From: Ziziphus jujuba
Taxonomy: Eukaryota; Streptophyta; Magnoliopsida; Rosales; Rhamnaceae
Direction: 5' to 3'
DNA: 64,000 nucleotides
Assembly: GCF_031755915.1 (NCBI RefSeq)
Contig: NC_083388.1
Coordinates: forward strand, 29,370,001-29,434,000
In this document: positions 7,144 to 61,409 of the stretch, piece after piece
How positions within the stretch are numbered: position 1 is the stretch's first letter
How the letters are laid out: each line of letters opens with the position of its first letter
Translations under genes and position numbers: made by a program
Notes under the pieces: model-generated
Told to the model about the DNA's origin: nothing
What the model saw: the letters and a program-made list of their open reading frames with translations, nothing else
Database searches by the model: none

Positions 7144-7145
7144 TT

Positions 7146-7158
7146 TGGTATCAGAGCC
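7146..7158 (+). other. E1 primer-binding site (initiator tRNA-Met)
   Basis: TGGTATCAGAGCC is complementary to the 3' end of plant initiator tRNA-Met and lies two bases after the 5' LTR, the usual place for minus-strand priming. Confidence 0.9.
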
Positions 7159-12477: not shown

Positions 12478-12492
12478 TTCGGCTCCAATGGT

Positions 12493-14862
12493 CTAAAGTG
12501 CATCCTCCTCATCATCTTCATTTTCTTCATTGTCATTGTCATTGGTTTCTTCTTCTCCATCACCCAACCAAGCATTATCTTCATGGACAAGAAGCTCCTC
12601 CTTTGTCCAATCCCAAACAGCATCTTCATCAATCCTCACATCATTTGTTACCACAAGTTTCTTGGTTTCCAAGTTGAAAACCCTAAAACCTTTGGTAACC
12701 TCACTAAAGCCGACCAAGATGCCCACATTTGCCCTTTTGTCAAGCTTGTCTCTCATGTGTGGATGAACATGGAGAAAACAAACACTTCCAAAGATTTTTA
12801 TGTTGTCCAAAGATGGTTTTTCTCCATACCATATCTCATAGGGTGTCTTGGACTCATTGGCTTTGGTGTATGCTCGGTTTTGGATGTAGCTAGCCGTGTA
12901 TATGGCTTTGGCCCAAAACTTCTTTGGCATGTTCTTCTCATGTATCATGCACCTTGCCATCTCCATCAAGGTCCTATTTTTCCTCTCACAAACACCATTT
13001 TGTTGTGGTGTGTATGGTGTTGTGAATTGATGCACCATTCCATTTTCTTTTCAAAAATCCTCCATAGCCAAGCTTGTATATTCTCCACCATTGTCGGTTC
13101 TCAAGCACTTCATCTTTGCATTGCTTTGGGTTTCCACCATCTTCTTGAATTCCATGAACTTCTCAAGCACTTGTGACTTGGTTGTTAGAAAATATACCCA
13201 ACACATCCTTGAGTAGTCATCAATGAAGGTTAGGAAGTACTTACATCCTCCAATTAATGACAAACTCACCGGTCCACACACATCCGAATGGACTAGCTCA
13301 AGCTTCTCCTTAGCTCTCCATGAACCGGCTTTAGGGAATGGAAGCCGTGTGGATTTCCCTAGTTGGCATACATCACATAGGCTTTTCATCTCCTCAATCT
13401 TTGGCATGTCCTTCACAATGGCATTGGTGTTTTTCATGGCACCATAGCTAGAATGCCCAAGCCTTTTATGCCAAAGTTGAGAAATGGACTCCACTTTGGT
13501 TTTTAAGGCTTGTTCATTCTTAACTAGGTCCAATCTATAGCTTTTTTCCTTCAATGGTACCTTAAATAGCTCATTACCACAAGCATCATATATGATACAT
13601 CCATCTTTTGCAAAATTTAAAGCAAAGCCTCTTTCTACCAATTGTGCTACACTAAGCAAGTTTTCACATAAACTAGGAACATATAGCACATTTTTTATAA
13701 TTTTGGTACCTTCCTTGGTGTTCAAGCACACATCTCCTTTGCCTTCTACTTTCATGAACCGGCCATCACCAATCTTCACTTTGGTTTTGTAGTTTCGGTC
13801 AAGCTCCACAAAGCCATCCTTTTGGAAACTCATGTGGTGTGAGCAACCACTATCCACAAGCCAACCGAGACCACTACTTGTGACTTTAAGGCATGTGGCC
13901 ACAAATAGGTTCTCAGCTTCTTCATTAACCACATTGGCTTGTTGTCTCCTTTGCTTGCATACTTTGGCAATGTGGCCTTTTCCTCCACATCTTTCACAAG
14001 ATGCATCCGGCCTCCAAAAACACTTGGATGGTGGATGTCCAAGCTTCTTGCAATGAGGGCAAGGTGGATGCCCTCCTCGGTTTTGATGGCTTTGTTGTTG
14101 TTGTTATTGATTCCATCCATTTTTGTTGTTGTTTGTGTTGTTGTTGGTTGTAAAACCCGTTTGGTTGGTGTTGTTGCTCTTCCTTCCTTTATTCTTCTTT
14201 TTGTTGCCATGGCCACCATAGAATGCACTCTCTATGGTCTCCTCCTTTCTAATGGCTCTCCTTTGTTCGGTTGCTTGAAGAGCATTGATGAGCTCACTCA
14301 AGGTTATTTCACTAAGATTTCTAGATTCTTCAAGGGAGGAAATCTTAGCTTTAAACCTTTCGGGTAAGCTCACCAATACTTTCTCTACTACCCTTTGATC
14401 GGTCAATTGCTCACCAAGGACCCGAATTTGATTTAACACTTTGAGCATCCTTTCCATGAAATCCTTGACAAGCTCATTCTCCTTCATCTTCAAGGTCTCA
14501 AACTCTCTTCTTAGGTTTAAAACTTGCATTTGCCGAGTTCTAGTATTTCCATGGAACTCCTCTTGAAGCTTTATCCAAACCTCTCTAGCACTTGTGCATG
14601 ACATTATCCTTGTAAAAATGGAATCACTCATGGAGGAGTGCAAGGCAGTGAGGGCTTTGAACCCCTTGGCAACTTCGGCCTCATGTGCATTTCTTTGTGC
14701 TTGGGTTGCATTAGCTCTCAACTCTTCCACTACATAACCTTCTTCTATGACTTCCCATATGCCAGAGGCTTGAAGGTAGGCTTTCATTTTTATACTCCAA
14801 ATGGAATAGTTTTGGCCTTCAAACTTAGGTGGTGTTGGGGTTGCAAAGGATTGTGAGGCCAT
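12493..14862 (-). pseudogene. E2 gag, protease and integrase (copia)
   Basis: The probable start is MASQSFATPTPPKFEGQNY at 14862. The frame gives a copia gag (IWSIKMKAYLQASGIWEV, LPERFKAKISSLEESRNL), two zinc knuckles near 14060-13960 (CPHCKKLGHPPSKC and CERCGGKGHIAKVC), protease WLVDSGCSHHMS near 13850, the integrase zinc region LWHKRLGHSS with CDVCQLGK, and core residues in LVHSDVCGP, LRTDNGGEY and TPQQNGVCERKN. All of this is one frame, broken by TAA near 14104, TGA near 13048 and TAG at 12493. It is a recently disabled polyprotein. Confidence 0.9.
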
Positions 14863-14947
14863 TTGAAAAAATGGTTTTTGAAAAGTTTTGAAAAATGGAC
14901 ACAAGAACAAGCTCTCGGGTGGTGGTGTTTTGGTGAGTTTCAACTAG

Positions 14948-15791
14948 TCTTGAGAAGGTTGTTAGCTTTTGGGAAGAAGAAGAAACCAAAATGTAGTAGA
15001 TGAGAGAAAGAGAGCCAAAAATGTTGTTTTTCAAAATTTCTTTTTGAATATTTTCTTTCTCAACGTTTTTCATTACAATTTTCATACTTTTAAATTCATC
15101 AAAAAGACAATAAGGCATGCTGCCATATTGATCAATAAATACAAAAGCATTAAAAGTAACCAACCAAGCCAAACTACCTCAACTAACTCTAATCAATATG
15201 CTGGGCATGCAAGAAACCTTCTTTAATGGGCAGTTCAGCTTGTCTAAGGCATTTGAATTTGAAAAACCAGCTCCATTTGACTTGAAAATTGAAGGGAAGC
15301 CTTTTTGAATATTAAACTATGTTCTACCCAAAAACCAGATAAAACAAAGTCCATTTACCCATTCAAAGTAATCAAACCCGAGGCAGTTTTGCCCAGTTTT
15401 CTAGGCAACAACACTGCACAAGGGTCAGATTGTTTTGGGCTTAACTCAGCCTTCCCAGCTTTAAATTGGGCCATTCTTTTTGCTGCTGCTTTCTCTACAT
15501 ATATAGTTTATCATATCCAAAATTCCGGTCCAAATACCAAACCTACTTCAAACGGCATCCAAGGAAATGGACTTATGTTGCTGGAAATACAATTCCAGCA
15601 ACTAGACAAAAAAGGCCTTAAGCAAGATAATGAGCTTAGGGCATTACAAAAAGGATATTGTTCTTGAACATTACAAGATAAAATAAAATGCATAAACATA
15701 AACAATGTTTGGTCTTTGATGTTGCAAAACAAAGAGTGCAAGTGTAACCGAACTACCTTGCACATTGTGGCAAGATCACCACATTTCAACA
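14948..15791 (-). repeat. 5' LTR of E2, truncated at its U5 end
   Basis: It matches 10044-10866 of the other E2 LTR but lacks the ~175 bp equivalent to 9869-10043. Its cut end (TCTTGAGAAGG at 14948) lies about 85 bp from the gag start. The copy also has ~20 extra bases near 15605 (ACAAAAAAGGCC) absent from the left LTR. It ends TTTCAACA before the TGCTA duplication. Confidence 0.88.
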
Positions 15792-15796
15792 TGCTA

Positions 15797-16287
15797 GCCA
15801 TATTTTACTAGGTAGACCATGGCAATTTGACAAAGATGCTACTCATTTTGGTCGAGAAAATAGTGTTGTTTTCAGGTTTAAAGGGAAGAAAATCAAGCTG
15901 GAGCCATTGACTCCCAAGGAGGTCTACAAAGATCAACTATAAATGCAACAAAGGAGGGAGGCCATAAAACTCAAGGAGAAAACAAGTATGGCACCAACGG
16001 TTCCACCATCCATTCAAGATGAAAAATGTGAGTTTGCTGTCCAAGGTAAGTCTTCTAAAACCCAGTTTGAATGGAAAAATTATATTAAACCCGAAAGTGA
16101 GAAATTTAGTGTAAAAGCCTAGAGTGATGTAAAACCCATTGAATCCGTGAGTGTGAAAGAAAAAGAAAGGAAAAATAAAAATTTTTATCTTAATTTTGGC
16201 GAAGCTAATAAAGTAATTTTGAGTAAGAAATCATTGCTGGCCATGAATTTTAAAGATACTTATTTAAAGATGTTTCTGTTGCATAGA
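15797..16287 (+). pseudogene. E1 protease C-terminus and linker, second segment
   Basis: This continues the E1 frame after E2. It reads HILLGRPWQFDKDATHFGREN, FRFKGKKIKLEPLTPKEVYKD, a stop (TAA near 15941), MQQRREAIKLKEKTSMAP, a further stop near 16122, a charged linker, then [15 protein letters not shown], where copia E3 interrupts at 16288-16292. The last motif is the first join of the patchwork region shared with B and C: LLHRT comes from the integrase RTL block rather than the sequence expected before RT. Confidence 0.88.
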
Positions 16288-16292
16288 ACTTT

Positions 16293-17325
16293 TGTTGAAG
16301 TGTGGCAATTTTGCCACTTGATGGTGCATGTCACCGGCTAGCATGCACACCTTGGTATCAAATCCTTTCCTTTTATGAGTTTATATTTTTTGTATGTTTT
16401 AATTTATGCAAGGTATATTTTGATAATGTTTTATGCCTAAGTTATGTATGCAAAAGTATAGGCAAAATTATGCACAAAAGAGTAGGAATGTTATGCTTGA
16501 AATGCCTATGGTGCTGGATTCATAATTTCCAGCAACATAGTTCTACTATTTATCTTATATCTCAGGTTGCAAATGGATTTTTGGGCTGAAATTTTGAGGG
16601 ATGTCTACAGACATATATAGAAGACTATGGTTCAAAGTTCAGGTCCAAATGACATGGGAACGTCCATTTGCTATTCCAAATAGATTGCAGTGTCTGATGG
16701 GCCCAGTATGCAGAGTATGGGTCCGTTTTGGAGCTGTTTGGCCCATGATCCGGTTCCAGAACATTCCTAGCTCTTGGAACAATATTTATTGATGACCAAG
16801 GATATTTCAAACCAAGTTTCATAGGCAGACACAAAGGGAAACTAAGTAGGTGAAGCTAGTTTGGTTGTTTACCCAAACTAGTTAAACAATAGGAACTTAG
16901 TTCAAACCATGTGCCACTTTTTACTATATTTGGAATAGACATGTTGCAGCTGGTTTTTGACTCTTTTGTGTATGAAAAGTTAGGTGTTGACCATTTTACT
17001 TTTTAAATTTCAAATATTTTACTCATTTTGTAAGCTCACATGCTTGGCATGTGTGAACTAGTTGTAATTTCAAGCTTATATAGTAAAATGAATGAAATGG
17101 CTACACATCCAAGCCTTATTTTCAAAAGCCAACGTGTTCCTCTTCTTCTTATCTCTTCTTCAACACCTTAGAACACTTTAGGAACCCTAAAAACCAGAAA
17201 ACACCATAACCAAAACCTAAAAACACAACTCACACACAACCATTCCCAAGAGCATCACCAAAAGCTTGCTTGTTGTTAACACTTCAAGCTAGCTTGCTCT
17301 TGGTCATAACCTTCTCACCCCAACA
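16293..17325 (+). repeat. 5' LTR of E3
   Basis: It is 1033 bp, TG...CA, and differs from the 3' copy only at scattered bases, mostly between 16570 and 16760. It includes a short inverted repeat TGCTGGA (16512-16518) and TCCAGCA (16528-16534), similar in sequence to the longer one in the E2 LTR. Confidence 0.94.
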
Positions 17326-17328
17326 AAG

Positions 17329-17340
17329 TGGTATCAGAGC
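17329..17340 (+). other. E3 primer-binding site (initiator tRNA-Met)
   Basis: TGGTATCAGAGC begins three bases after the 5' LTR and is complementary to the 3' end of initiator tRNA-Met, as usual for plant copia elements. Confidence 0.9.
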
Positions 17341-17384
17341 AAGGCACATTTTTGTGAGATTTGTGAGGTTTTTGGGCTGGTTCG

Positions 17385-18809
17385 TTGCTTGAGAGTGAAG
17401 AGATACTTGAAAGCACAAATATATTTTCATATTCCTTCATACTAGAAAGCAACATTCACATAGCTTCTTCAAGTTTTTCAACTCCTTCTCCTCCTATCTT
17501 CAATGGGGAGAACTACAACATTTGGAGTATCAAGATGCAAGCCTACTTGAAGGCTTATGGTCTTTGGGAGGTCACCATAAATCCCCAAGAACCCGAGCCT
17601 TTGAGACAAGGGGCAACGGTCAACCAAATCAAGCACCATGAGGAGGAATTGGCTAAAGGTTTCAAGGCTCTCACCGCCATTCATTCTTGTATTAGTGATA
17701 CCATTTTCACAAGGATAATGGCATGTGAGAGTGCCAAAGAAGCTTGGGACAAACTTCAAGATGAGTTCCAAGGGAGTGCAAGGACAAGGAAAATGCAAAT
17801 CCTTAACCTAAGGAGGGAGTTTGAGACTATCAAGATGAAAGACAAAGAAACGGTTAAGGAGTTCACCACAAGGCTTCTTAATGTGGTGAATCAAATTAGG
17901 GTGCTAGGTGAAAGATTAAGTGACCAAAGGATTGTGGAGAAGGTGTTGGTCTCCTTGCCCGAGAGGTTTGAAGCTAAGATATCTTCATTGGAGGAGTCAA
18001 GGAACCTAAATGAAATTTCCTTGACCGAGTTGGTGAATGCCTTGCAAGCTACAGAGCAAAGGAGGAGGATTAGACATGAAGAATCAATGGAGGCTGCATT
18101 TGTGTCTAAACAACATCAAAAGACACAAAATCAAAAGAAGAACAAGCTTAAGGTGATAAAGGAGAAAGGTGAAACTAGCAAACCCAAGAGGAAGTCCTAT
18201 GAACCTTATTACCATTGCAAGAAGAGAGGTCATCATCCAAGAAGGTGTTGGTGGAGGCCGGATGCATTTTGCCATAAATGCCAACAAAAGGGTCATGTGG
18301 AGAGAGTATGCAAGGCAACCAAGAAAGATAAGCAACAAGCAAATGTTGCTAAAGATAATGCAAGTGATAGTGAATCCGAAGAGTTGTTTGTTGCTACTTG
18401 TTTTAGTAGCATCAAGAATGATGAAGGATGGATCATTGATAGTGGAGCAACACACCATATGTCTCACAAGCATGAGTGGTTCACAAACTTGGATAGGAGC
18501 AGCCACAACAAAGTCAAAATTGGAAATGGAGCCTTGATGGAAGTGAAAGGCAAAGGAGATGTGGTGATACACACCACCAAAGGTATCAAAACTATCCATG
18601 ATGTTCTCTATGTACCTTCTTTATGTGAGAACTTACTTAGTGTAGGTCAAATGCTTGAGAACAAATATGCATTACACTTCTCAAACATGACATGCACTAT
18701 AGTTGATCCACATGGAAATGAATTAATGTGTGTTGGAATGAAGAACAAGAATTTTAGGTTGAATATGGATGAAAATGGTGCATCGGTTGCATTGAACACT
18801 AAAGTTTAG
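17385..18809 (+). CDS. E3 gag and protease (copia polyprotein N-terminal part)
   Basis: This 474-residue frame starts at the first in-frame ATG, 45 bp after the primer-binding site. Residues ~30-230 are a copia gag: FNGENYNIWSIKMQAYLKA, KGFKALTAIHSCISDTIFTR, LNLRREFETIKMKDKE and LPERFEAKISSLEESRNL. Two zinc knuckles follow at about 278-310 (YHCKKRGHHPRRC and CHKCQQKGHVERVC). The aspartic protease has WIIDSGATHHMS near residue 349. The frame continues to LRLNMDEN-type pre-integrase sequence and ends at TAG (18807-18809), directly before TSQLWHKRLGHA in the same frame, so the stop is a mutation inside one polyprotein. Gag packages the RNA and the protease would mature the polyprotein. Confidence 0.9.
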   Translation: MLESEEILESTNIFSYSFILESNIHIASSSFSTPSPPIFNGENYNIWSIKMQAYLKAYGLWEVTINPQEPEPLRQGATVNQIKHHEEELAKGFKALTAIHSCISDTIFTRIMACESAKEAWDKLQDEFQGSARTRKMQILNLRREFETIKMKDKETVKEFTTRLLNVVNQIRVLGERLSDQRIVEKVLVSLPERFEAKISSLEESRNLNEISLTELVNALQATEQRRRIRHEESMEAAFVSKQHQKTQNQKKNKLKVIKEKGETSKPKRKSYEPYYHCKKRGHHPRRCWWRPDAFCHKCQQKGHVERVCKATKKDKQQANVAKDNASDSESEELFVATCFSSIKNDEGWIIDSGATHHMSHKHEWFTNLDRSSHNKVKIGNGALMEVKGKGDVVIHTTKGIKTIHDVLYVPSLCENLLSVGQMLENKYALHFSNMTCTIVDPHGNELMCVGMKNKNFRLNMDENGASVALNTKV

Positions 18810-18889
18810 AACACCTCTCAACTTTGGCATAAAAGACTAGGCCATGCTAGTTTTAAGTCATTGGTAGGCACACATGAACTGTTAGAGAC

Positions 18890-21445
18890 ATGCCATTGGT
18901 GGAGAAGCAAGAACATGTGTGTGAAGTGTGTCAAAAAGGAAAGCATACTAGGCTAGCATTTCAATCTTGTTCTTGGAGATCAAAGGAGAAGCTAGGACTT
19001 ATACATTCGGATATTTGTGGTCCTATGAGTGTTCCATCCTTAAATGGCAGCAAGTATTTCATAACTTTCATTGATGATTACTCAAGAATGTGTTGGGTGT
19101 ATTTCCTTGAAAGAAAATCACAAGCTTTGGAGAAGTTTGTAGAATTTATGAAGTTAGTGCAAAATCAATCCGGTTGCACTATAAAGGTGTTAAGGACGGA
19201 CAATGGTGGGGAATACACAAGTGAGGCTTTCAAACAACTTTGTAAGGATCATGGTATAGTTCATCAATTCACTACACCATACACACCACAACAAAATGGT
19301 GTATGTGAAAGGAAAAACCGTACCATCATGGAGATGGCTAGATGTTTGTTGTGTGAAAGTGGCTTGCCAAAGAAGTTTTGGGCCGAAGGAGTTAATACAT
19401 CCATCTACATCCAAAATAGGCTTTACTCAAAGTCTTTGAGGAGTAAAACCCCATTTGAGCTTTGGTTTGGATATAAGCCTTCTCTTGATCATCTAAGGGT
19501 ATTTGGAAGCACTTGTTACATCCTAGTACCACAAGAGAAGAGAGGAAAGCTTGATGAAAGGTCACAAGTTGGTGTCTTGGTTGGCTATAGTGATGTGACC
19601 AAGGGATATAGAGTGTATAACTTGGAAACCAAGAAACTTGTGATAAGTAGAGATGTGAAAGTTGATGAGGAAGCTAAATGGGTTTGTAGTAAGGAGGAGT
19701 TGGCTAGTATGGATGAAGACAATCGGCTTGAAGCTCATGATAATGATGAGGAACAAGGAAATGATGAAGGTGCTGCCCATGATGATGAATATGATGAGAA
19801 TGAGCTAGAAATCTCCATAGGGGCTGATTTGGAGATTGGTGATGGTGTGAGAGGCACAAGACCTCTTAATGAGATTTATGAAAGGTGTAATGTGGCATTG
19901 AGTGATCCAATCAATGTCCATGAGGCTATGGCAAGAAAAGAGTGGAGACAAGCCATGCAAGATGAAATCGATGTGATAAACAAGAATGACACTTGGAGCT
20001 TGGTAACAAAACCGAAGGGAAAGAATGCTATTGGGGTGAAGTGGATCTTTAGGACCAAGTACAATCCGGATGGGTCCATAAATAAGCACAAGGCAAGGCT
20101 TGTTGTCAAAGGATATGCACAACAAGCCGGTGTGGATTATGGAGAGACTTTTGCACCGGTTGCAATGATGGAAACCATAAGACTTCTTCTTGCAATTTCG
20201 GCACAAAAGTCTTGGAAAGTATATCACCTTGATGTGAAGTCAGCCTTCTTGAATGGAATATTAAAGGAGGAGGTCTATGTTGTGCAACCCGAAGGTTTTG
20301 TGAAGAAAGGAAGTGAAGAGAAGGTATACAAGCTACACAAGGCCTTGTATGGCCTTAAACAAGCTCCTAGGGCATGGTATGCCAAGATAGATGGTTTTTT
20401 GACAAAGCATGGATTTAGGAGGAGTCCTAATGAGCCTACATTGTATATTAGGACTCATGGTTGCATGGTGTTGGTTTCTCTTTATGTTGATGACCTCCTA
20501 GTGACCGGTGGTAATGAGAAAGAAGTGAGCAACTTCAAAGGTGAGCTAGAATTGAACTTTGAGATGTCTAGCCTTGGAGAGATGAAATACTTTCTTGGAA
20601 TTGAAGTTGTCCAATCATCCAAGGGCATCTTCATATCTCAAGAAAGCTATGTGAAGGAGTTGCTCAAGAAGTTTGACATGGAGGATTGTAATAGCGTTGC
20701 CACACCTATGAATGAAGGCACTAAGTTGGTGAAGGATGATGATTCTCCAAAGGTAAATCTTTCCATCTATAGAAGTTTAATTGGTAGCCTTTTATATGTA
20801 TGCTCTACTAGACCAGATATCATGTTTAGTGTGGCTGTTTTGTCAAGATTTATGCATAGTCCATCACAAAATCATCTTAGTTGTGCAAAAAGAATCCTAA
20901 GGTATTTGAAAGGTACTAGTGATTTTGGTATATGGTACAAGGATGGCATGAATGAAGCTTTGCTTAGTTATAGTGATAGTGATTGGGCTGGTTCTTTGGA
21001 TGATAGCAAGAGCACATCGGGCTACATTTACACTCTTGGAAATGGTCCTTTCTCATGGAATTCAAATAAGCAACAAACCGTTGCACAAAGCACCGCGGAA
21101 GCCGAGTATATTGCTTGCTCAAGTTGTGCTAATCAAGGTGTTTGGCTTAGGAAATTATTGGAGGACTTGAGCTTGAAGCAAGAGGAAGCCACGGTAATAT
21201 TGTGTGACAATACTTTAGCAATAGCAATTGCACAAAATCCAGTCCAACATGGGAGGACCAACCACATACCGGTCAAGTATCATTCCTTAAGGGAATTTGA
21301 AGCAAGTGGTGAAGTGAAGTTAGAGTATGTGACTTCCGAGGAGAACTTGGCGGATATCTTCACCAAGCTATTGGGAAAGAAGAGATTTAAGATATTGAGA
21401 GGACTTCTCAACGTCTCATACAAAATTGCCAAGGAGGAGTGTTGA
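18890..21445 (+). CDS. E3 integrase, reverse transcriptase and RNase H (copia pol)
   Basis: This 851-residue frame is the rest of the E3 polyprotein; the upstream part of the zinc-binding domain (LWHKRLGHA) is cut off by a frameshift at about 18870-18890. It keeps CEVCQKGKHTRLAF, then the integrase triad: Asp in LIHSDICGP, Asp104 in LRTDNGGEY, Glu in TPQQNGVCERKN. The RT follows from about residue 375 (GVKWIFRTKYNPDG, LDVKSAFLNG, KQAPRAWYAKI) with the catalytic YVDD at 532-535. RNase H motifs are SDSDWAGSLDD, STAEAEYIACSS and CDNTLAIAIAQNP. The final codons KEEC-stop are made by the purine tract and the first LTR bases. All catalytic residues that I can check are present. Confidence 0.93.
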   Translation: MPLVEKQEHVCEVCQKGKHTRLAFQSCSWRSKEKLGLIHSDICGPMSVPSLNGSKYFITFIDDYSRMCWVYFLERKSQALEKFVEFMKLVQNQSGCTIKVLRTDNGGEYTSEAFKQLCKDHGIVHQFTTPYTPQQNGVCERKNRTIMEMARCLLCESGLPKKFWAEGVNTSIYIQNRLYSKSLRSKTPFELWFGYKPSLDHLRVFGSTCYILVPQEKRGKLDERSQVGVLVGYSDVTKGYRVYNLETKKLVISRDVKVDEEAKWVCSKEELASMDEDNRLEAHDNDEEQGNDEGAAHDDEYDENELEISIGADLEIGDGVRGTRPLNEIYERCNVALSDPINVHEAMARKEWRQAMQDEIDVINKNDTWSLVTKPKGKNAIGVKWIFRTKYNPDGSINKHKARLVVKGYAQQAGVDYGETFAPVAMMETIRLLLAISAQKSWKVYHLDVKSAFLNGILKEEVYVVQPEGFVKKGSEEKVYKLHKALYGLKQAPRAWYAKIDGFLTKHGFRRSPNEPTLYIRTHGCMVLVSLYVDDLLVTGGNEKEVSNFKGELELNFEMSSLGEMKYFLGIEVVQSSKGIFISQESYVKELLKKFDMEDCNSVATPMNEGTKLVKDDDSPKVNLSIYRSLIGSLLYVCSTRPDIMFSVAVLSRFMHSPSQNHLSCAKRILRYLKGTSDFGIWYKDGMNEALLSYSDSDWAGSLDDSKSTSGYIYTLGNGPFSWNSNKQQTVAQSTAEAEYIACSSCANQGVWLRKLLEDLSLKQEEATVILCDNTLAIAIAQNPVQHGRTNHIPVKYHSLREFEASGEVKLEYVTSEENLADIFTKLLGKKRFKILRGLLNVSYKIAKEEC

Positions 21446-22473
21446 AGTGTGGCAATTTTGCCACTCGATGGTGCATGTCACCGGCTAGCATGCACACCTT
21501 GGTATCAAATCCTTTCCTTTTATGAGTTTATATTTTTTTGTATGTTTTAATTTATGCAAGGTATATTTTGATAATGTTTTATGCCTAAGTTATGTATGCA
21601 AAAGTATAGGCAAAATTATGCACAAAAGAGTAGGAATGTTATGCTTGAAATGCCTATGGTGCTGGATTCATAATTTCCAGCAACATAGTTCTACTATTTA
21701 TCTTATATCTCAGGTTGTAAATGGAGTTTTGGGCTGAAATTTTGAGGGATATCTACAGACATATATAGAAGACTATGGTTCAACTTTCAGGTCCAAATGA
21801 CATGGGAAAGTCCATTTTCTATTCCCAACAGATTGCTGTGTCTGATGGGCCCAGTATGCAGAGTATGGGTAAGTTTTGGAGCTGTTTGGCCCATGATCTG
21901 GTTCCAGAACATTCCTAACTCTTGGAACAATATTTATTGATGACCAAGGATGTTTCAAACCAAGTTTCATAGGCAGACACAAAGGAAAACTAAGTAGGTG
22001 AAGCTAGTTTGTTTGTTTACCCAAACTAGTTAAACAATAGGAACTTAGTTCAAACCATGTGCCACTTTTTACTATATTTGGAATAGACATGTTGCAGCTG
22101 GTTTTTGACTCTTTTGTGTATGAAAAGTTAGGTGTTGACCATTTTACTTTTTAAATTTCAAATATTTTACTCATTTTGTAAGCTCACATGCTTGGCATGT
22201 GTGAACTACTTGTAATTTCAAGCTTATATAGTAAAATGAATGAAATGGCTACACATCCAAGCCTTATTTTCAAAAGCCAACGTGTTCCTCTTCTTCTTAT
22301 CTCTTCTTCAACAGCTTAGAACACTTTAGAAACCCTAAAAACCAGAAAACACCATAACCAAAACCTAAAAACACAACTCACACACAACCATTCCCAAGAG
22401 CATCACCAAAAGCTTGCTTGTTGCTAACACTTCAAGCTAGCTTGCTCTTGGTCATAACCTTCTCACCCCAACA
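21440..22473 (+). repeat. 3' LTR of E3
   Basis: This 1034-bp copy starts directly after the purine tract AAGGAGGAG (21431-21439) and ends CCCCAACA before the ACTTT duplication. High similarity to the 5' copy implies a fairly recent insertion. Confidence 0.94.
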
Positions 22474-22478
22474 ACTTT

Positions 22479-23025
22479 ATCTTCATTATTAAAAGCTTTA
22501 CTTAGTGGAAATTTGAAAATTTGGGAAAGATTATTTGCTAATATTGAGAAATTTGATGAACTTGTATTTCTAGTATTTGTTGTGATAGTATTTGACCCAG
22601 GATGTTGGTTTTGGTTTCAACCAAGGAAGGAGAGGATTCCCGAACAATGAAAGTCCAAGCTTATGCCGCGACGAGATGGATGCTTTCAAGTTTTGGAAAG
22701 GATCAATGAGAATACCTACAAACTTGATTTAATAGGTGAGTATAGTGTTAGTGCCACATTTAATGTTGTTGAGTTATCTCCTTTTGCTGCAGGTGATGAT
22801 CTTGATTTGAGGACAAATCCTTTTCAAGAGGAGGGGAATGATGTGATTCCGCTCGAGCCCGCTCAACCGATAACCCGCTGGGGTGCCGACCCGACACGGA
22901 TGAAGACTAGGCCAATCATAAGAGCTCAAATTAAGAGATTTAAGGACAAACTGGGAGCATTTATGCAAGGGGTAATCAATCTCAACAAAGCTTGTCTATA
23001 CTTGAAGATACAAAGCCTATTCTAA
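22479..23025 (+). pseudogene. E1 patchwork tail: integrase and RT scraps with C-terminal domain
   Basis: After E3 the E1 frame resumes with LLKALLSGNLKIWERLFAN (integrase core end joined to an RT-derived LFAN block), then [13 protein letters not shown] (RT block joined to the integrase C-terminal block). A frame disturbance and a stop occur near 22650. From 22663 the tail is open: [39 protein letters not shown], then NPFQEEGND across the purine tract into the 3' LTR, ending SLF-stop at 23025. The last ~62 residues are encoded by the LTR. Confidence 0.85.
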
Positions 23026-23973
23026 GCATCCAAGTGCTGGAAGCCGAGACGGACCCGGGTAGTAGTTTTGGTGCAAATATGGACAATGGGCAGCATGAAA
23101 TGGTTCCAACTATTTATGGATTCAATAAATATTTCTAAGAAGATATGGAATCAATTCAAGGCAGCTTCAAAGGCATTCAAAAAGGGGTTGTACGGACAGC
23201 TTCAAATTTGGCCTGTTTTTTACTGTATTTTGTGCTGGCTTTACTGTATTTTGCTGAGTTGGCTTTTTCTTCCTCTTCCAATCATGGGCAACGTGTGGGA
23301 CTTCATATTCATCTTATTTTTGCATCCTAAAAAGCATAATGAAGCTGATTTGGAGATCAATTTGGCCAAAGATTGGTCAAAGTCAACTTAGTCAAAAAGC
23401 TAGTATTATAGTTTCCTAATTTGATTCTACTTTTTGTTTTAGGAAATTACCATTACTTTTTAGTTTTTATTTATTTATTTTTCTGGAACAATAAGTTTAG
23501 GAAAGTTATTATTTTATTATTTTCATTGTAAATTAATTAATTCCTAATTCAAAATAAAGGAATTAATTAATCCAAATTAGATTAGGAAAGGAGTGAGAAT
23601 TTCGGCCACCATAGGAAACTACTTTGTATGACCGGTTTTCCCTTTGTTTTTAAGGTTTTATTTCATGGCTTTGTAGCCTATTTAAATGCTTATTTTTCAA
23701 TAAGAAGGAAGCTGAAATTTTATACAGAAATTTAATTGTGAGAGTGAAATCTCTTTGTTCTCTTTGAACACCTAAAACATCATTAGTGAATGAGTTTTTT
23801 AGTTTGACTTACCAATAGGACATCCATCCCCTATTGTGGCATCTACATTATACCAAGGTTTCTAACCACAGGTTGGTTAGGGGTTGAGGTCCATTCCATT
23901 AGAACTTGAACTTAATTGAGATCCAGGCTAATATAATACGGGTTTAGGAGCAGGTCGTCCTAGGTTCGTATCA
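22839..23973 (+). repeat. 3' LTR of E1
   Basis: It is 1135 bp, preceded by AAGAGGAGGGGAA and followed by GCCAT. It differs from the 5' copy at scattered positions, more than the E3 pair does near its ends. Plastid-type sequence resumes at once after the duplication. Confidence 0.93.
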
Positions 23974-33185: not shown

Positions 33186-34321
33186 TGATACGAACCTAGG
33201 ATGACCTGCTCCTAAACCTGTACTATATTAGCCCGGATCTTTAATTAAGTTCAAGTTCTAATGGAATGGACCTCAACCCCTAACCAACCTGTGGTTAGAA
33301 ACCTTGGTATAATGTAGATGGCACAATAGGGGATGGAAAACCTATTGATAAGTCAAGCTAAAACAACCAATTCTCTAATGGTGTTTTAGGTGTTCTCAAA
33401 GAACAAAGAGATAATTAATCTCACAAGTATTTTCTTAATCAAATCAAAGTTGTATTCTTATTGAAAAATAAGCCTTTAAAAGGCTACAAAGCCACAAAAT
33501 AAAACCCTAAAAACAAAAGAAAACCAGCCACCACACATAAAGAAACCTAGTTGGCTGAAACTATACTTCCTTTCCTAATCTAAGTTTGATTAATTAATTC
33601 CTTTATATTAAATTAGGAATTAATTAATTTACAATGGAAAGAATAAAATAAAAACCTTCCTAAAGTTATTTTTCCAGAAAATAAATAAATAAAAGCCAAA
33701 AAGTAATGGTAGTTTCCTAAAACAAAAAGTCAAAACAAATTAGGAAACTAAAAATGCTAGCCTTTTTGATCAAGTTGACTTTGATCAATCTTTGACCTCT
33801 TTGAGCTTCAAATTAGCTTCTAGATGGTTTGTAGGATGCCAAATAAGCTGAATATGAAGTCCCACACGTTGCCCATTCTTGGAAAAATAAGAAAAGGCTA
33901 AAAGAGTAAAATACAGTAAAGTCAGCAAGCAATACAGCAAATTCGGCCAAATTATTGATGCTGTCCGTACAAGCCCTTTTTGATTGTATTTGAGGCTGCT
34001 TTAACTTGATTCCATGACCTATTACGCATATGTATTGAACCCATAAAGCATTGGAACCATTTCATGCTTATCGGACTCCAAAAATGTACCAAAACCGTCA
34101 CCCGGGTCCGTATCGGCTTCCACCACTTGGATGCTTAGAATAGGCTTTGTATCTTCAAGTATGGACAAGCTCTATTGAGATTGATTACCTCCTGTATAAA
34201 TACTTCCAGGTTTTCCTTAAATCTCTTAATTTGAGCTTTTGTGATTGGCCTAGTCTTCATCCGTGTCAAGTCAGCACCCCAGCGGGTTATCGGTTGAGCA
34301 GGCTCGGGCGGAATCACATCA
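33186..34321 (-). repeat. 3' LTR of B
   Basis: It is 1136 bp and abuts the purine tract (TTCCCCTCCTCTTG on the plus strand, 34322-34335). The end of the second B reading frame (34135-34321) is encoded inside it. Confidence 0.93.
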
Positions 34322-35256
34322 TTCCCCTCCTCTTGAAAAGGATTTGTCCTCAAATCAAGATCATCACGTGCAGCAAAAGGAGTTAAATCAGCAACATTAA
34401 ATGCAGCACTCATGTTATACTCACCCGGTAAATCAAGCTTGTAGGCATTCTTGTTATTCTGCTCCAAAACTTGAAAAAGTCCATCCATAGGCGGCATGAG
34501 CTTTGACTTTCTTTGTTTAGGAAACCTTTCCTTTCGTAAGTGCAACCAAACCAATTCTCCTGGGTCAAACACTATTACAACAAAATCTAGAAATACATGC
34601 TCATTATGGTAAAAATTACACTTTTTAAAGTTAGCAAACAATATTTCCCAAATTTTGAAATTGCCACTAAGTAAAGCTCTCAACAATGCAGATAAAGTTC
34701 TATGCAATAAAGACATCTTTAAATAAGTATCTTTAAAATTCATGGTCAGCAATGATTTCTTATTCATAATTACTTTATTAACATCACCAAAGCTAAGATA
34801 AAAATTTATATTCTTCCTTTCTTGTCTTCCTTTTCCTTTCTCACTCAATGCCATCTCACTTTCCTCACTCTCGGCTTTTGCACCAAATTTTTCACTCTTG
34901 GTTTTATTAAAATCTTTCCACACAACCTGAGTATTAGAAGACTTACCTTGGATAGCAAGCTTACCTTTTCCCTCTTGATTGGATGGTAGTCCACTTGGAA
35001 TTTCATTTGGGAAGACATCTCCAAATTCCTTCAAAAGAGAAAACATTGAACTTGGCAATTCAAGTTCTTCAATGTTAGTTTGATCATTAAAATAATTTTC
35101 TTTATAAATCATGACCAGCAAAGGTTTCTTACTCTCAATAAACTTATTAATATTCCCTAAACTCAAGTAAAAGTTGCTACTTAACCTTTCTTTTCTTTCT
35201 TTTTCTTTTCCCCCCTTGGATTGGCGCAGACCTTCGGATTTCCCTTCCTTCTCCAA
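34135..35256 (-). CDS. B second frame: linker, patchwork integrase/RT pieces, C-terminal domain
   Basis: The 373-residue frame follows gag-protease after one stop codon at about 35277 in the same frame, so both were one polyprotein. Residues ~1-150 are a charged Lys/Glu linker containing [20 protein letters not shown], the start of the RT-proximal region. Then [20 protein letters not shown] joins linker to the integrase RTL block, [20 protein letters not shown] joins integrase to an RT block, and [20 protein letters not shown] joins RT to the integrase C-terminal domain. The end ([40 protein letters not shown]) runs through the purine tract into the LTR. No catalytic RT or integrase residues are kept, so its role can only be structural or none. 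Confidence 0.85.
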
Positions 35257-35274
35257 GCTCTCGGGTTTGCCACT

Positions 35275-37158
35275 TTATTTCCCCTCTCTTTCGGTTTTTC
35301 TTTGTTCTTTCCACTCAATATGAGCCTTAGAAATCTTACCTTGGTCAGCAACCTCATTCTTACCTTCTGGAAAGGATGGTGAAGCTGTTGGTGCCATACT
35401 TGCTTTTTCCTTAAGCTTTTTGGCTTCTCTCCTTTGTTGCATTTGTAATTGGTCTTTGTAAACCTCTTTAGGAGATAATGGTTCCAGCTTGACCTTCTTC
35501 CCTTTAAACCTGAAAACAATACTATTTTCTCGACCAAAATGAATAGCATCTTTATCAAATTGCCATGGCCTACCTAATAGTATATGTCCAACAATCATGG
35601 GTACAATATCACATAAGACTACATCCTCATATCTACCTATACTAAATTTTACTTTGGCTTGTTTGTTTACTTTCATCTCACCACTATCATTAAGCCATTG
35701 TAATGTATATGGTTCAGGATGTTTTATTGTTTTTAAGCCCAATTTATCAACTACAAGGTTACTTATTACATTAGTACAACTTCTACTATCAATAATCATA
35801 CTACAAATCTTACCTTGAATTTCATCCTCATCTTTGTATGCAGCAAGTACTCTCCTAGAAAGCAAGTTTAATTCAGCATTGGATGCTTGCAAGGTTTCAG
35901 GTTCATCCTCCAAGTCCTCCTCTTGCTTGGCTTCATCCTCACTTTCTTCACTTTCCGATTCTAGCTCGTCATTGCCCTTTAACACCATGATTCTTCTATT
36001 CGGGCATTGGCTAGCGATGTGTCCTCCTCCCTGGCACTTAAAACACACAACATCATGAGTTCTAGAAGGTTTAGGATCTAATTTTACCTCATTCTTTGGT
36101 GCTTGGACAGATTCGGTTCTAGTCTCCTTCCCTGGCCAATTTGAACTTTCTTCTTTGACTTTCGGCTTTGGCTTGCTTTCATAGATGGGATTGTTCCTCC
36201 AGCCACTAGAATTGGACCTTCCACTGTTGGAAACACCTTCAAACCATGATCCTACACCCCTCCTTTTGAATTGATGCTCTAATTTAATAGCCACATGCAA
36301 CATCTCCTCCAATTCCACATATTGTTGCAATTCTAGTTGATTGGCTATTTCACAATTCAAACCACCAAGAAACCTTGCCATGGCTGCGTCCTTATCTTCA
36401 TTCAAGTTCAATCTCATCATGAGCATCTCCATCTCCTTGTAATAATCCTCCACGGATCCATGTCCTTGAGATAAAGATTGAAGTCTTTGATGCAGCAACC
36501 TATGATAGTGTGATGGTACGAATCGCTTCCGCATGGCTCCTTTCATTTGTCGCCATGTAGTAATCAAGTCATCACCAACTCTCCTTCGGGTGTTTTGCTC
36601 ATTGGTCCACCATTGGAGTGCATAATGGCCAAACTCCATTGCTGCCAATTTCACCTTCTTAGCCTCTAAATAATTATGGCGGTCAAATATCATCTCCATC
36701 TTTTCTTCCCACTCCAAATATGCTTCGGGATCACTTTTTCCCATGAATGATGGGATGTTGATCTTGATATTGCTAAGATTGTCATCTGTTCCTTCCCTCC
36801 TATACCTTCCACGGCCAGCTCTCTCTTGGACAGCAAAGGTTTCGTCCATGCCTTCCTCAAAGTCTCCACCGAATGGCTCCTCATCAAATTCCTCTCTTGA
36901 TCTTTTGCGACCTCCTCGTCCTCCATGGAATTCTTGCCTATTTCTTGTGTTCGGAATTCCTTGGGAAACTTCTAGCCTTCCCACCCTTTGATTCACATGC
37001 TCAACTTGAGCACTAACCCGCTGTATTGACTCCAAAACAGCCCTAATGTCCACTTGATCTCCACTCCCGGTAGCTCGGGCATCGCCATGGAATGCTACGG
37101 ACTCTTCCTCATTGATCCACAAGGGTGGATCTCCTATTCTTATTCTAGAATCTGCCAT
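35275..37158 (-). CDS. B gag and protease
   Basis: The frame starts at MADSRIRIGDPPLWINEEE (37158) and is open for about 627 codons. A coiled region ([19 protein letters not shown]) precedes the gag core at about residues 140-300 (IPSFMGKSDPEAYLEWEEK, WRQMKGAMRKRFVPSHYHR, ARFLGGLNCEIANQLELQQ). A CCHC knuckle CFKCQGGGHIASQC is at about residues 375-388. An acidic Glu/Asp linker follows, then the aspartic protease (SMIIDSRSCTNVIS; the usual DSGS Gly is Arg here) and GHILLGRPWQFDKD. It ends at a TAA where GKESGK is expected. Gag would allow packaging of the RNA if supplied with enzymes in trans. Confidence 0.92.
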   Translation of the reverse strand: MADSRIRIGDPPLWINEEESVAFHGDARATGSGDQVDIRAVLESIQRVSAQVEHVNQRVGRLEVSQGIPNTRNRQEFHGGRGGRKRSREEFDEEPFGGDFEEGMDETFAVQERAGRGRYRREGTDDNLSNIKINIPSFMGKSDPEAYLEWEEKMEMIFDRHNYLEAKKVKLAAMEFGHYALQWWTNEQNTRRRVGDDLITTWRQMKGAMRKRFVPSHYHRLLHQRLQSLSQGHGSVEDYYKEMEMLMMRLNLNEDKDAAMARFLGGLNCEIANQLELQQYVELEEMLHVAIKLEHQFKRRGVGSWFEGVSNSGRSNSSGWRNNPIYESKPKPKVKEESSNWPGKETRTESVQAPKNEVKLDPKPSRTHDVVCFKCQGGGHIASQCPNRRIMVLKGNDELESESEESEDEAKQEEDLEDEPETLQASNAELNLLSRRVLAAYKDEDEIQGKICSMIIDSRSCTNVISNLVVDKLGLKTIKHPEPYTLQWLNDSGEMKVNKQAKVKFSIGRYEDVVLCDIVPMIVGHILLGRPWQFDKDAIHFGRENSIVFRFKGKKVKLEPLSPKEVYKDQLQMQQRREAKKLKEKASMAPTASPSFPEGKNEVADQGKISKAHIEWKEQRKTEREGK

Positions 37159-38319
37159 GTTAGTAAAATACTGCAAAAATAAAATGAATCCTCACAATAT
37201 TCACTCCCTCACGTGTTTCACTCAAACAAGGTCTCAACACTCGTGTTTCCTCACTAGTTTCGGCTTTTACCCTCTTTTAAGCTCACACACTCTTGCCTTT
37301 TTCCACTCAATGAATTATCTCAAAGTTCTAATTAAAACACCCACAAAACAGCAATTAGATCACTAGTATGTTTTAATTAAACTTATCAACAAAACAGTAG
37401 CAAAAAGTAGACAATACCGAAAGAATCCAACAAATCCTAATTTTTCGGCTTTCTAGACAAGAAAACGCAAAATAATGGGAAAACGTTGGAATTTTTGAAA
37501 ACTGCACCAGATGGTAGTAGATTATGAGTTCAAGAATAAAATTCCAGAAAAAGAAACTCAATTATGTACAAGAATCAAAGAGAACAAAAATATAGAAAAG
37601 TTGTTGGTTGTTGTTCTTTGTAATTCAAGTTTTTGTATCAAATCCTTTAATTGATTTTAATCCAAATAATTTAAGCACCCAAAATCCAAATATCCAGCAG
37701 CAAAAATAATTCTCCAGCAACTCAAATATTGAATAAATAATAATAATAAAAAAACCAGCAGCTCCAACAAATTTCCAGCAAACAAACCAAACTCCAACAA
37801 ACCGAAATATTTTTTTCTTCTTTTTTATTTTTTTTTTATTCGGCTTTACCTGTTTTTTTTTTTTTTTTTCACTCCCAGAACATAAAAAACTTCTGTAGCA
37901 AGAATAATTACCAAATTTGCAATTCCAACTCCAAAAATTCACCAAACCCGTGACCTCCAAATAAACACAAATGTGCAGTTTTTTTTTTTCTTTTCTTTTT
38001 TTTTTTTTTAAATGTTGCCACAAACTCTTTTTTTTCTTTTTAAAAAATAGATGAATGCAAATATTTAAGACTAAAACAGCAAAGGAAAATCAAAAAAAAC
38101 CAAAATTATCAAGAACAATGATAAAAGACAACCAACAAATTAGGAAACAAAAATACGATAAAACTAGGAAACCTAATTCAACTAGGAATGATTTTTTTTT
38201 TTTTTTAAGATGCAGAACGTGTATGGGATGGATGCAACCTTAACCTAATTCTAAAATTGCAGAATAACACAAAAAAAAAATAAAGCAAATAAAGATAGAT
38301 CAAACCTGAAAAAAATTTA
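37159..38319 (-). other. B untranslated leader
   Basis: The 1.16-kb leader between primer-binding site and gag has long A/T homopolymers (near 37850-37870 and 37979-38010) and is collinear with the leaders of E1 and D. Apparent frames in it are not conserved between copies. Confidence 0.75.
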
Positions 38320-38331
38320 GCTCTGATACCA
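38320..38331 (-). other. B primer-binding site (initiator tRNA-Met)
   Basis: GCTCTGATACCA on the plus strand is TGGTATCAGAGC on the element strand, two bases from the 5' LTR end at 38334. Confidence 0.9.
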
Positions 38332-38333
38332 AA

Positions 38334-39470
38334 TGATACGAACCTAGGACGACCTGCTCCTAAACCCGTATTATATTAGCCCAGATCTTTAATTAAGTTC
38401 AAGTTCTAATGGAATGGACCTCAACCCCTAACCAACTTGTGGTTAGAAACCTTGGTATAATGTAGACACCACAATAGGGGATGGAAAACCTATTGATAAG
38501 TCAAGCTAAAACAACCAATTCTCTAATGGTGTTTTAGGTGTTCTCAAAGAACAAAGAGATAATTAATCTCACAAGTATTTTCTTAATCAAATCAAAGTTG
38601 TATTCTTATTGAAAAATAAGCCTTTAAATAGGCTACAAAGCCACGAAATAAAACCCTAAAAACAAAAGAAAACCAGCCACCACACATAAAGAAACCTAGT
38701 TGGCCGAAACTATACTTCCTTTCCTAATCTAAGTTTGATTAACTAATTCCTTTATATTAAATTAGGAATTAATTAATTTACAATGGAAAGAATAAAATAA
38801 AAACCTTCCTAAAGTTATTTTTCCAGAAAATAAATAAATAAAAGCCAAAAAGTAATGGTAGTTTCCTAAAACAAAAAGTCAAAACAAATTAGGAAACTAA
38901 AAATGCTAGCCTTTCTTATCAAGTTGACTTTGATCAATCTTTGACCTCTTTGAGCTTCAAATCAGCTTCTAGATGCTTTGTAGGATGCCAAATAAGCTGA
39001 ATCTGAAGTCCCACACGTTGGCCATTCTTGGAAAAATAAGAAAAGGCTAAAACAGTAAAATACAGTAAAGCCAGCAAGCAATACAGCAAATTCGGTCAAA
39101 TTGTTGATGCTGTCCGTACAAGCCCTTTTTGATTGCATTTGAGGCTGCTTTAACTTGATTCCATGACCTCTTACGCATATGTATTGAACCCATAAAGCAT
39201 TGGAACCATTTCATGCTTATCGGACTCCAAAAATGTACCAAAATCGTCACCCGGGTCCGTATCGGCTTCCACCACTTGAATGCTTAGAATAGGCTTTGTA
39301 TCTTCAAGTATGGACAAGCTCTATTGAGATTGATTACCCCCTGTATAAATACTTCCAGGTTTTCCTTAAATCTCTTAATTTGAGCTCTTGTGATTGGCTT
39401 AGTCTTCATCCGTGTCAAGTCAGCACCCCAGCGGGTTATCGGTTGAGCGGGCTCGGGCGGAATCACATCA
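38334..39470 (-). repeat. 5' LTR of B
   Basis: It is 1137 bp, nearly identical to 33186-34321, and ends AATCACATCA directly before the AGTAG duplication and the resumption of element A. Confidence 0.93.
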
Positions 39471-45240: not shown

Positions 45241-45394
45241 GTTCTAAAAGATGCTTAATATACAAATAGGCGACCCTTTTTTAAATAAAGAAATAGGCGA
45301 CTCATTTTCCAACAACATTGCCTTTTCTTCTTTCTTTTTTCTCAATTTTTTTATTTACACGTGTACAACCCCATAAAAAAAAAATTCAGATAAG

Positions 45395-52857: not shown

Positions 52858-53612
52858 TCACTTAGCTCGGCCAGACACAACTTAGCGTATTTTTGTCACT
52901 TAGCTCAGCCAGACACAACTTAGCTCGGACAGACATCCGTTAGCTCGGCCAAACATAAGTTCGCTCGGACAAACATCAGTTAGCTCGAATAGGCCATAAG
53001 TTAGCTCGAACATCAGGCAGACATAAGTTAGCTCGGTTGAAGACATAATTCAGCCTAGATGTCAAAGTCAACTCGTTACCTAATTTGCGATTGACTTTAT
53101 TTCTTTTTGGGTTTTTATTTTTTTATTTTCTGGACAAATAACTTTAGGAAGGTTTTTATTTTATTGTAAATTAATTAATTCCTAATTTAATACAGAGGAA
53201 TTAATTAATCAAACTTAGATTAGGAAAGGAAGTGTAGTTGCGGCCAACTAGGTTTCCTTATGTGTGTGGCCGGTTTTATCTAGGGTTTTTAGGGTTTATT
53301 TTGTTTCTTTCAAAGCCTATTTAAAGGCTTATTTTTTAATAAGAAATAACTTTGATTTGATTGAGAAAATACTAGTGAGATTAATTATCTCCTTATTCTT
53401 TGAGAACACTTAAAACACCATTAGAGAATTGGTTGTTTTAGCTTGACTTATCAATAGTTTTTCCATCCCCTATTGTGGCGTCTACATTATACCAAGGTTT
53501 CTAACCACAGGTTGGTTAGGGGTTGAGGTCAATTCCATTAGAACTTGAACTTAATTAAGATCCGGGCTAATATAATACGGGTTTAGGAGAAGGTCGTCCT
53601 AGGTTAGTATCA
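52858..53612 (+). repeat. 5' LTR of D, left part missing
   Basis: It matches the 3' LTR from TTAGCTCGGCCAGACAC onward and ends AGGTTAGTATCA. The U3 start (TGATGCAAACC in the 3' copy at 63104) and about 285 bp after it are lacking. The left edge also holds a ~30-bp local duplication of ATTTTTGTCACTTAGCTC. Confidence 0.87.
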
Positions 53613-53614
53613 TT

Positions 53615-53627
53615 TGGTATCAGAGCC
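53615..53627 (+). other. D primer-binding site (initiator tRNA-Met)
   Basis: TGGTATCAGAGCC lies two bases after the 5' LTR, identical to that of E1. Confidence 0.9.
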
Positions 53628-54755
53628 AAATTTTGTTCAGGTTTGATCTATCTTTATTTGCTTTATTTATTTTTGTGTTAATCTGCAATTTTAGCATTAG
53701 GTTAAGGTTGCTTCTATCACCATACACGTTCTGCATTTAGAAAAAAAAAATTCATTTCTAGTTGAATTAGGATTTCCTAGTGTTACCGTATTTTTGTTTC
53801 CTAGTTTGTTGGTTGTTTTTTCATCATTGTTCTTGTTGATTTTGGTTTTTGTGTATTTTTCTTTGCTGTTTTAGTCTTAAATATTTGTATTTATATATTC
53901 AAAAAAAAAAAAAAAAAGAGTTTGCGGTAACATTTAAAAAAAAAAAAAAACTGCACATTTGAGTTTATTTGGAGGTCACGGGTTTGGTGTTTGTTTTTGA
54001 GTTGGAATTGCAATTTTGGTAATTATTCTAGCTACTGCAGTTGTTTATGTTCTGTGAGTGAGAAAAAAAAAAAAAAAGAGAGAACGCCAAAAAAAAAAAA
54101 ATATTTCGGTTTGTTGGTGTTTGATTTGCTTGCTGGAAATTTATTGCAGCTGCTGGGTTTTTTTTTTTTTTATCATTTATTTGAGTTGCTGGGAAATTAT
54201 TTTTGCTGCTGGATATTTGGATTTTGGGTGCTTAAATTATTTGGATTAAAATCAGTTAAAGCATTTGATACAAAACTTGAATTACAAAGAACAACAACCA
54301 ACAACTATTCTATATTTTTGTTCAATTTGATTCTTGTTCGTATTTGAATTTTTTTTTTCTTGAATTTTATTCTTGAACTCATAATCTACTACCATCTGGT
54401 GCAGTTTTCAAAAATTCCAATGTTTTCCCATTATTTTGTGTTTTCTTGTCTAGAAAGCCGAAAAAAAAAATTAGGATTTGTTGCATACTTTCGGTATTGC
54501 CTACCTTTTGCTTACTGTTTGTTGATAAGTTTAGTTAAAACATACTAGTGATCTAATTGCTGTTTTGTGGGTGTTTTAAATAGAACTTTGAGATAACTCA
54601 TTGAGTGGAAGAAGGCAAGAGTGTGTGAGCTTAAAAGAGGGTAAAAGCCGAAACAAGTGCGCAAACACGAGTGTCGAGTCCTTATTTGAGTGAAACACGC
54701 AAGGGAGTGAAATTGGTAAGGTCCTATTTTATTTTTATTGCATCATTATACTAAC
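53628..54755 (+). other. D untranslated leader
   Basis: A ~1.1-kb T-rich leader is collinear with those of E1 and B. It has several A-runs and T-runs (53903-53918, 53936-53951, 54062-54076) of different length from the other copies. There is no supported gene. Confidence 0.75.
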
Positions 54756-57889: not shown

Positions 57890-57931
57890 CTCACCTTCCT
57901 CACTCTCGGCTTTTGCACCAAATTTCTCACT

Positions 57932-61382: not shown

Positions 61383-61409
61383 GGGGAAGTACAAGAAAAA
61401 TCTTTTAAT

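Follow-up and report, generated by a model that had tools for sequence, protein, structure and literature searches.

Three earlier reports already describe, in their available portions, semi-autonomous elements with Gag and protease, non-autonomous elements of centromeres and recombination among such elements (PMC11302176, PMC9744471, PMC4079200). In wheat centromeres, RLG_Quinta, the partner of RLG_Cereba, codes for Gag and has neither RT nor integrase (INT). The partners have the PBS, the LTR ends and a conserved second half of the LTR in common, and recombination around gag has been reported for them; the available text of PMC11302176 recognizes a non-autonomous partner by these features, i.e., the same PBS, the same LTR termini and a conserved LTR second half. 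RLG_Sabrina_SA of wheat is called a 'semi-autonomous' Gag-protease element without RT and INT in the excerpted part of PMC9744471. In grasses, noaCR and the recombinant CR2/CR5 subgroups are non-autonomous elements of the centromeric type, in some of which RT/integrase is absent or truncated, and recombinants between subfamilies are prolific (PMC4079200, available portions). For the template-switching complexes of Triticeae (PMC1950507) and the recombinants of ONSEN (PMC5668417), the sections available propose strand switching between co-packaged RNAs as the source of new recombinant insertions. In jujube, likely the same genus as here, Gypsy elements make up over half of the centromeres, and the CRJ elements found there are mostly of the Athila and CRM type; the available text of that paper contains no word beginning with 'autonomous' (PMC12596083).

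The locus analysed here is a 64-kb stretch of jujube DNA (the window) with five related Ty3/gypsy copies, which we call E1, B, F, C and D. What is new is a scrambled, frame-keeping pol remnant in three of them (E1, B and C) that is traced through exchange with a helper. The copies are as follows.

6010..23973, + strand: copy E1; LTRs 6010-7143 and 22839-23973, 95.6% identical; target duplication GCCAT/GCCAT
33186..39470, - strand: copy B; LTRs 38334-39470 and 33186-34321, 97.4% identical; target duplication AGTAG/AGTAG
56221..60119, - strand: copy C; 3' LTR 56221-57356; 5'-truncated; inside D
52894..64000, + strand: copy D; autonomous-type relative with normal pol order, split by C; 3' LTR from 63104, running off the window
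30497-33185 and 39471 to about 42952, - strand: copy F; decayed autonomous-type relative with normal pol order, split by B

The target duplications of E1 and B, already seen in the initial annotation, are real, and in C, which is 5'-truncated, none is visible. Ty3/gypsy features are present, namely the LTR pair, target duplication, PBS, PPT, gag and, in the full relative, the order RT-RNase H-INT. B is nested in F and is 6.3 kb long, whereas the representative CRJ element given in the available text of PMC12596083 is 11,454 bp. C lies antisense within the protease region of D, and its 5' end and part of the protease-linker stretch of D are both absent at about 60117-60119. Since both are missing at the same place, one deletion probably took both. 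Two other LTR elements, at about 10044-15790 and 16293-22473, interrupt E1; they have LTRs of their own and one open frame of 855 aa. These two inserts lie in opposite orientation with about 68% mutual identity over much of their length, and from their motifs we take their ORFs to be Ty1/copia-like. The integrase region of F contains a 54-bp tandem duplication at 31889-31996.

The coding content separates the scrambled copies from D and F. The main open reading frames are listed below.

35275..37176, - strand: B ORF1, 633 aa; Gag, CCHC knuckle, protease-like region and the start of linker 1; its terminal stop is absent from C
34135..35256, - strand: B ORF2, 373 aa, in the same frame as ORF1; the rest of linker 1, linker 2, INT and RT fragments and an SH3_Tf2-1 module
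60459-61382, + strand: D RT ORF, 307 aa
61410-63392, + strand: D RH-INT ORF, 660 aa, ending inside the LTR that starts at 63104

The second ORF of B is exactly the range that had been singled out (34135-35256), and it runs into the 3' LTR (33186-34321), ending at 34135. In Pfam searches, B ORF1 matched Retrotrans_gag (74.2 bits) and zf-CCHC (22.1), with protease below threshold (14.6 against a cut-off of 24.3), and B ORF2 and the C ORF matched only SH3_Tf2-1 (59.4 and 50.4). The ORFs of D gave, in order, RVT_1, RT_RNaseH, Integrase_H2C2 and SH3_Tf2-1, with rve below its cut-off; a chromodomain was absent from their Pfam matches at E up to 0.1. With the RT and RH-INT ORFs of D as tblastn queries, long pol matches were found only in D and the decayed F, and B, C and E1 gave only short pieces. 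An intact pol hidden in one of the copies, which had been named as an observation that would speak against a scrambled lineage, was thus looked for in this way and was not found in B, C or E1; the E1 inserts, also considered as its place, gave only weak integrase-like matches (24-34% identity). E1, B and C therefore retain the LTR, gag, protease-like region and INT C-terminal module, and are without RT, RNase H and the integrase core. Their damage differs, with one stop and a protease motif that looks damaged in B, one stop and frame shifts in C, and several stops in E1. Breaks at different places in the three copies are the pattern expected of decay after insertion. D carries one stop and one frameshift in pol and is interrupted by C, so this copy itself is not the helper.

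To map the pol blocks, we aligned the DNA of the copies with the pol of D, which is in normal order (60117-63320); positions below are relative to the start of that stretch where so marked. The order in E1, B and C is linker, INT fragment, RT fragment and INT C-terminus. For B, the linker aligns to D-relative 205-361 (68% identity), the INT fragment to 2420-2488 (80%), the RT fragment to 1005-1078 (81%) and INT-C to 2733-2829 (75%). C has its blocks in the same order as B in alignment to D. The linker part of E1 could be aligned to F only, and its RT fragment matches D over two separate short stretches of 33 and 29 nt. The joins and the two displaced fragments are located as follows.

E1 16266-16289 (+), B 34697-34720 (-), C 57732-57755 (-): join 1, linker to INT fragment
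E1 22520-22541 (+), B 34631-34652 (-), C 57666-57687 (-): join 2, INT to RT fragment
E1 22576-22599 (+), B 34561-34584 (-), C 57596-57619 (-): join 3, RT fragment to INT C-terminal module
34648..34703, - strand: B INT fragment, source in D about 62536-62604
34575..34648, - strand: B RT fragment, source in D 61121-61194

We take the RT and INT fragments to fall outside the catalytic motifs. At join 1 of B, 8-14 nt align to neither parent. With up to 3 mismatches allowed, each join pattern is matched exactly three times in the window, once each in E1, B and C, whereas 100 shuffles gave a mean of 0.00; since the patterns were derived from these copies, the counts speak for sameness and confinement to E1/B/C rather than for independent discovery. 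The initial annotation had held that the three copies carry the same chain of joins and that the corresponding blocks of D are far apart in normal order. Both points are borne out: compared with D base by base, the copies have the same three joins, not different ones in each, and the blocks lie at D-relative 1005-1078 (RT), 2420-2488 (INT) and from 2733 (INT-C).

No plant element with the order INT-RT-INT was found in the literature searched, as far as the available portions of the papers go. Quinta consists of GAG and a domain of unknown function, whereas the jujube copies keep a protease-like region and the INT C-terminal module, and a scrambled pol order is not described in the available text of PMC11302176. 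Likewise, the order INT-RT-INT is not described for noaCR/CR2/CR5 in the parts of PMC4079200 at hand. Sabrina_SA has only minimal homology to its proposed partner (PMC9744471, excerpted part), whereas the element studied here has about 95% identity in gag to its likely partner type. The recombinants in the available sections of PMC1950507 and PMC5668417 are whole-element fusions or exchanges between family members, whereas here joins at non-equivalent places reorder pol.

Could the three copies be segmental duplicates of one rearranged locus, or products of independent deletions? All three lie within one 64-kb window, which is compatible with duplication. However, the target duplications of E1 and B differ, and E1 is only 78.5-91.0% identical to B/C in the six segments that both have. 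The same scramble also occurs in two database proteins that are identical to none of the three copies. Three identical non-collinear joins are implausible by separate events, as had been argued from the start. With identical joins, differing target duplications and this divergence, we rejected both explanations as extremely improbable. We consider it probable that E1, B and C come from one rearranged founder, which moved with the enzymes of D-like autonomous relatives and later recombined with such helpers. A common founder and helper dependence are likely because the joins are shared and gag and a predicted protease are kept, while RT, RNase H and the INT core are gone. Of the earlier proposal that a rearranged founder was mobilised in trans, the shared founder and its spread after the rearrangement stand on the two target duplications and the divergence of 9-21.5%; its mobilisation in trans we infer.

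Signs of a likely partnership with D-like elements are also seen outside pol. The 12-nt PBS core TGGTATCAGAGC is identical in B, E1 and D, as are the LTR termini TGATG...TATCA, with bases further inward differing, and the scrambled copies keep LTR ends, PBS and PPT. The PBS core may be complementary to tRNA-Met. The window has its own tRNA-Met (CAT) match at 30283-30355 (-), which by eye does not pair with the PBS of the elements and which we take to resemble plastid trnM, perhaps from a plastid DNA insertion. When the LTR of B is set against the 5' LTR of D, six of the eight bins from column 660 on are 91-100% identical and the remaining two are at 89% and 72%, and columns 0-599 are 40-79% identical or cannot be aligned. 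The middle of the D U3 (63316-63593 and 52894-53100) cannot be aligned to the other copies and has short repeats around TTAGCTCGG. The scrambled copies thus have, with D-like elements, the PBS, LTR termini and LTR second half in common that mark a non-autonomous partner in the available text of PMC11302176. CRM-clade chromoviruses are marked by LTR ends TGATG and T/CATCA, a PBS complementary to tRNA-Met, and a CR motif or an RT that groups within the clade (PMC3059260, available portions); the LTR ends of our family agree with this description, and its features fit the clade. We suggest that the scrambled lineage is likely semi-autonomous and CRM-like, relying on D-like partners for RT and integrase and trading parts with them.

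B and C are recombinants; this mosaic, their duplicated linker and the kept frame of the scramble go beyond the initial annotation. Their front (LTR second half, gag, protease and linker 1) goes with D, and their linker 2 and LTR start go with E1. The parts of B that define this structure are listed here, followed by the percent identities of the segments.

34974..35402, - strand: linker 1, D-like, 91.6-92.0% identical to D 60117-60543; absent from E1
34735..34971, - strand: linker 2, E1-like; its part 34735-34960 is 81.6% identical to E1 and 64.6% to D
34972..34985, - strand: join 4 (in B and C, not in E1), D-like RT start to E1-like linker 2, within ACCATCCAATCAAG

LTR second half: B-D 91.0, B-E1 85.4
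gagN: B-D 94.6, B-E1 81.7
PR/gagC: B-D 94.5, B-E1 82.0
Linker 1: B-D 92.0, none in E1
Linker 2: B-D 64.6, B-E1 81.6
INT-C: B-D 80.9, B-E1 80.5
U3: B-D 76.4, B-E1 91.0

From the LTR second half to linker 1 (38870-34971), 25 bins of 150 nt were scored between B and D: 18 are at 90-97%, 3 at 87-89% and 4 at 76-84%, the last being three in the leader and one at 37220-37071. Identity to D then falls to 67-80% in the six bins of 34970-34071, from linker 2 through INT-C into U3, where B is 73-94% identical to E1. In the two INT-C bins among these six, D is slightly closer to B (78 and 80%) than E1 is (73 and 77%). AU tests compared three topologies with B and C held together. For LTR second half, gag and PR combined, (B,C) with D is favoured (p of 7.5e-25 and 1.7e-136 for the other two); the alternatives have 5e-4 and 1e-4 for gag/PR alone and 1.5e-3 and 1e-5 for LTR second half alone. 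For linker 2 and U3 combined, (B,C) with E1 is favoured (others 5e-4 and 4e-4); the alternatives are both at 1.8e-3 for U3 alone and both at 0.017 for linker 2 alone. PR/gagC alone has weak bootstraps (56 and 43). The linker 1 tree separates B, C and D from E1 and F with a bootstrap of 100, E1 being represented there by its only linker. For INT-C no topology is rejected (p-AU 0.59, 0.54 and 0.17), and with these values and the near-equal identities we dropped INT-C as added support for the grouping with E1. Because it fits no single grouping and D is marginally closer in two of its bins, the rear block is not uniformly E1-like.

A mosaic in the reverse direction, in which D obtained its front from a B/C-like element by homologous recombination, would agree with the similar identities of the front segments in all pairs of B, C and D (90.8-97.3%). 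We hold it to be improbable, because linker 1 of B/C continues into an RT start whose source must have been an element with pol in normal order, and because B/C have two linkers against one in D. For the same two reasons the recombinant is most simply B/C and not D.

As to the mechanism, the initial annotation had suggested template switching, with short homology to be sought at each join. Judged from the sequences, template switching is the likely source of the founder joins and of the exchanges. Parental similarity is present at join 2, with a score that 2 of 5000 random pairs attained (the windows were positioned by eye), but at joins 1 and 3 it is no better than random, with about 4200 of 5000 pairs as good. 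For join 4, 11 of 14 nt are common to both parents, a level of similarity that 135 out of 5000 random pairs also attained. To make the founder, minus-strand synthesis on two co-packaged RNAs would have changed template three times: from INT-C to the RT fragment, from there to the INT fragment on the second RNA, and from the INT fragment to the linker. Helper and scrambled transcripts would then enter one particle, where the scrambled RNA could be reverse-transcribed and integrated by the RT and integrase of the helper. At a later time, a D-like helper RNA may have been packaged together with an E1-like scrambled RNA; synthesis on the scrambled RNA would have moved to the helper RNA where the two matched over a short stretch, and run to completion on it, which yields the B/C type with its helper-derived front and two linkers. 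The duplicated linker in B/C is the scar expected if synthesis left one RNA and resumed on another at a non-equivalent place. The D-like LTR stretch of B already starts some 240-290 nt upstream of the likely start of transcription (from a TATA-like block placed by eye), which calls for one or more extra switches within U3. A switch exactly at the U3/R border is unsupported, because the D-like sequence begins earlier.

The scramble and the mosaic could instead have been made in genomic DNA by nesting and illegitimate recombination or deletion, and then have been transcribed from the LTR and spread. These families are nested twice within the window (B in F and C in D), and for centromeric elements the available part of PMC4079200 offers a second route besides template switching, nested insertion with illegitimate recombination. 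Nesting and illegitimate recombination could give similar joins, and joins 1 and 3 are without parental similarity. A genomic D-like front with a scrambled rear would, after one cycle of replication, also acquire a D-like R-U5 together with a scrambled U3. This origin nevertheless requires several deletions after nesting as well as transcription of the product, and in the plant family ONSEN pairwise recombination is frequent and is ascribed to reverse transcription of co-packaged RNAs (PMC5668417, available sections). We regard a genomic origin as rather unlikely and favor template switching.

The scramble has further carriers among known proteins. When the 60-aa core of the scramble was compared with 5.77 billion proteins, 2 of 15 candidates matched at E up to 10: P0001, a cluster of 4, with 98% identity over the core, and P0002, Ziziphus jujuba LOC132803824, with 95%. 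Candidate length was restricted to 0.55-1.75 times 373 aa, so longer proteins fused to Gag could not show up. Just past join 3, P0002 agrees with B at 34 of 36 positions and with D at 26 of 36. Further on, it agrees with B at 35/46 and 28/58, with D at 40/46 and 34/58, and with P0003 at 42/46 and 35/58. This suggests that P0002 records a further exchange, with a tail that is partly autonomous-like. For the Gag ORF of B, the best match among 7976 candidates scored was P0121 from Ziziphus jujuba (76% identity over 73%). In P0005, P0007 and P0008 we noted by eye in-frame internal pol deletions in normal order, e.g., RT passing straight into integrase.

In B and C, joins 1-4 share one reading frame, which predicts an ancestor that encoded a Gag-protease protein with an integrase C-terminal tail; in E1 the frame is kept within each of its two pieces, taken separately on either side of the insert. 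It is conceivable, though we hold it doubtful, that this tail is not debris, i.e., that Gag-protease fused to the INT C-terminal module, assembled from newly ordered pieces of INT and RT and in frame through four joins, is under selection and couples particles or RNA to the helper integration machinery. We compared w for each pair with up to 400 neutral simulations, counting those as low as observed. The core INT and RT fragments (38 codons) gave 0.25 for B-E1 (6/400), 0.38 for C-E1 (10/400) and 1.22 for B-C (211/270). INT-C before the LTR gave 0.34 for B-E1 (5/400), 0.42 for C-E1 (10/400) and 0.18 for B-D (0/400), and for the whole of INT-C the values were 0.45 for B-E1 (17/400), 0.52 for C-E1 (37/400), 1.19 for B-C (293/400), and 0.22 for B-D and 0.25 for E1-D (0/400 each). 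Linker 2 had w of 0.86 for B-E1 (212/400), 1.01 for C-E1 (228/400) and 0.39 for B-C (75/379). The D-F value in INT-C (72 codons, calculated without simulation) is 0.08. The differences between B and C are mostly recent change. These values are modest evidence of constraint on the scrambled tail, since the codons are few, the pairs are non-independent, several tests were made and helpers may have swapped INT-C with these copies. A tail under selection would be an example of a new fused protein arising from broken enzyme genes.

The locus is a likely fossil record of a defective retrotransposon that lived off helpers and swapped parts with them, and the scramble is a label by which a single lineage can be traced even where it recombined later. 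The joins are short and unique, which makes them suitable for counting descendants, dating the founder and detecting cDNA recombinants in the host. Elsewhere in the window, 43614-47912 is occupied by long, diverged tandem-repeat arrays with several periods, including 411, 341, 257, 250, 105 and 39 bp.
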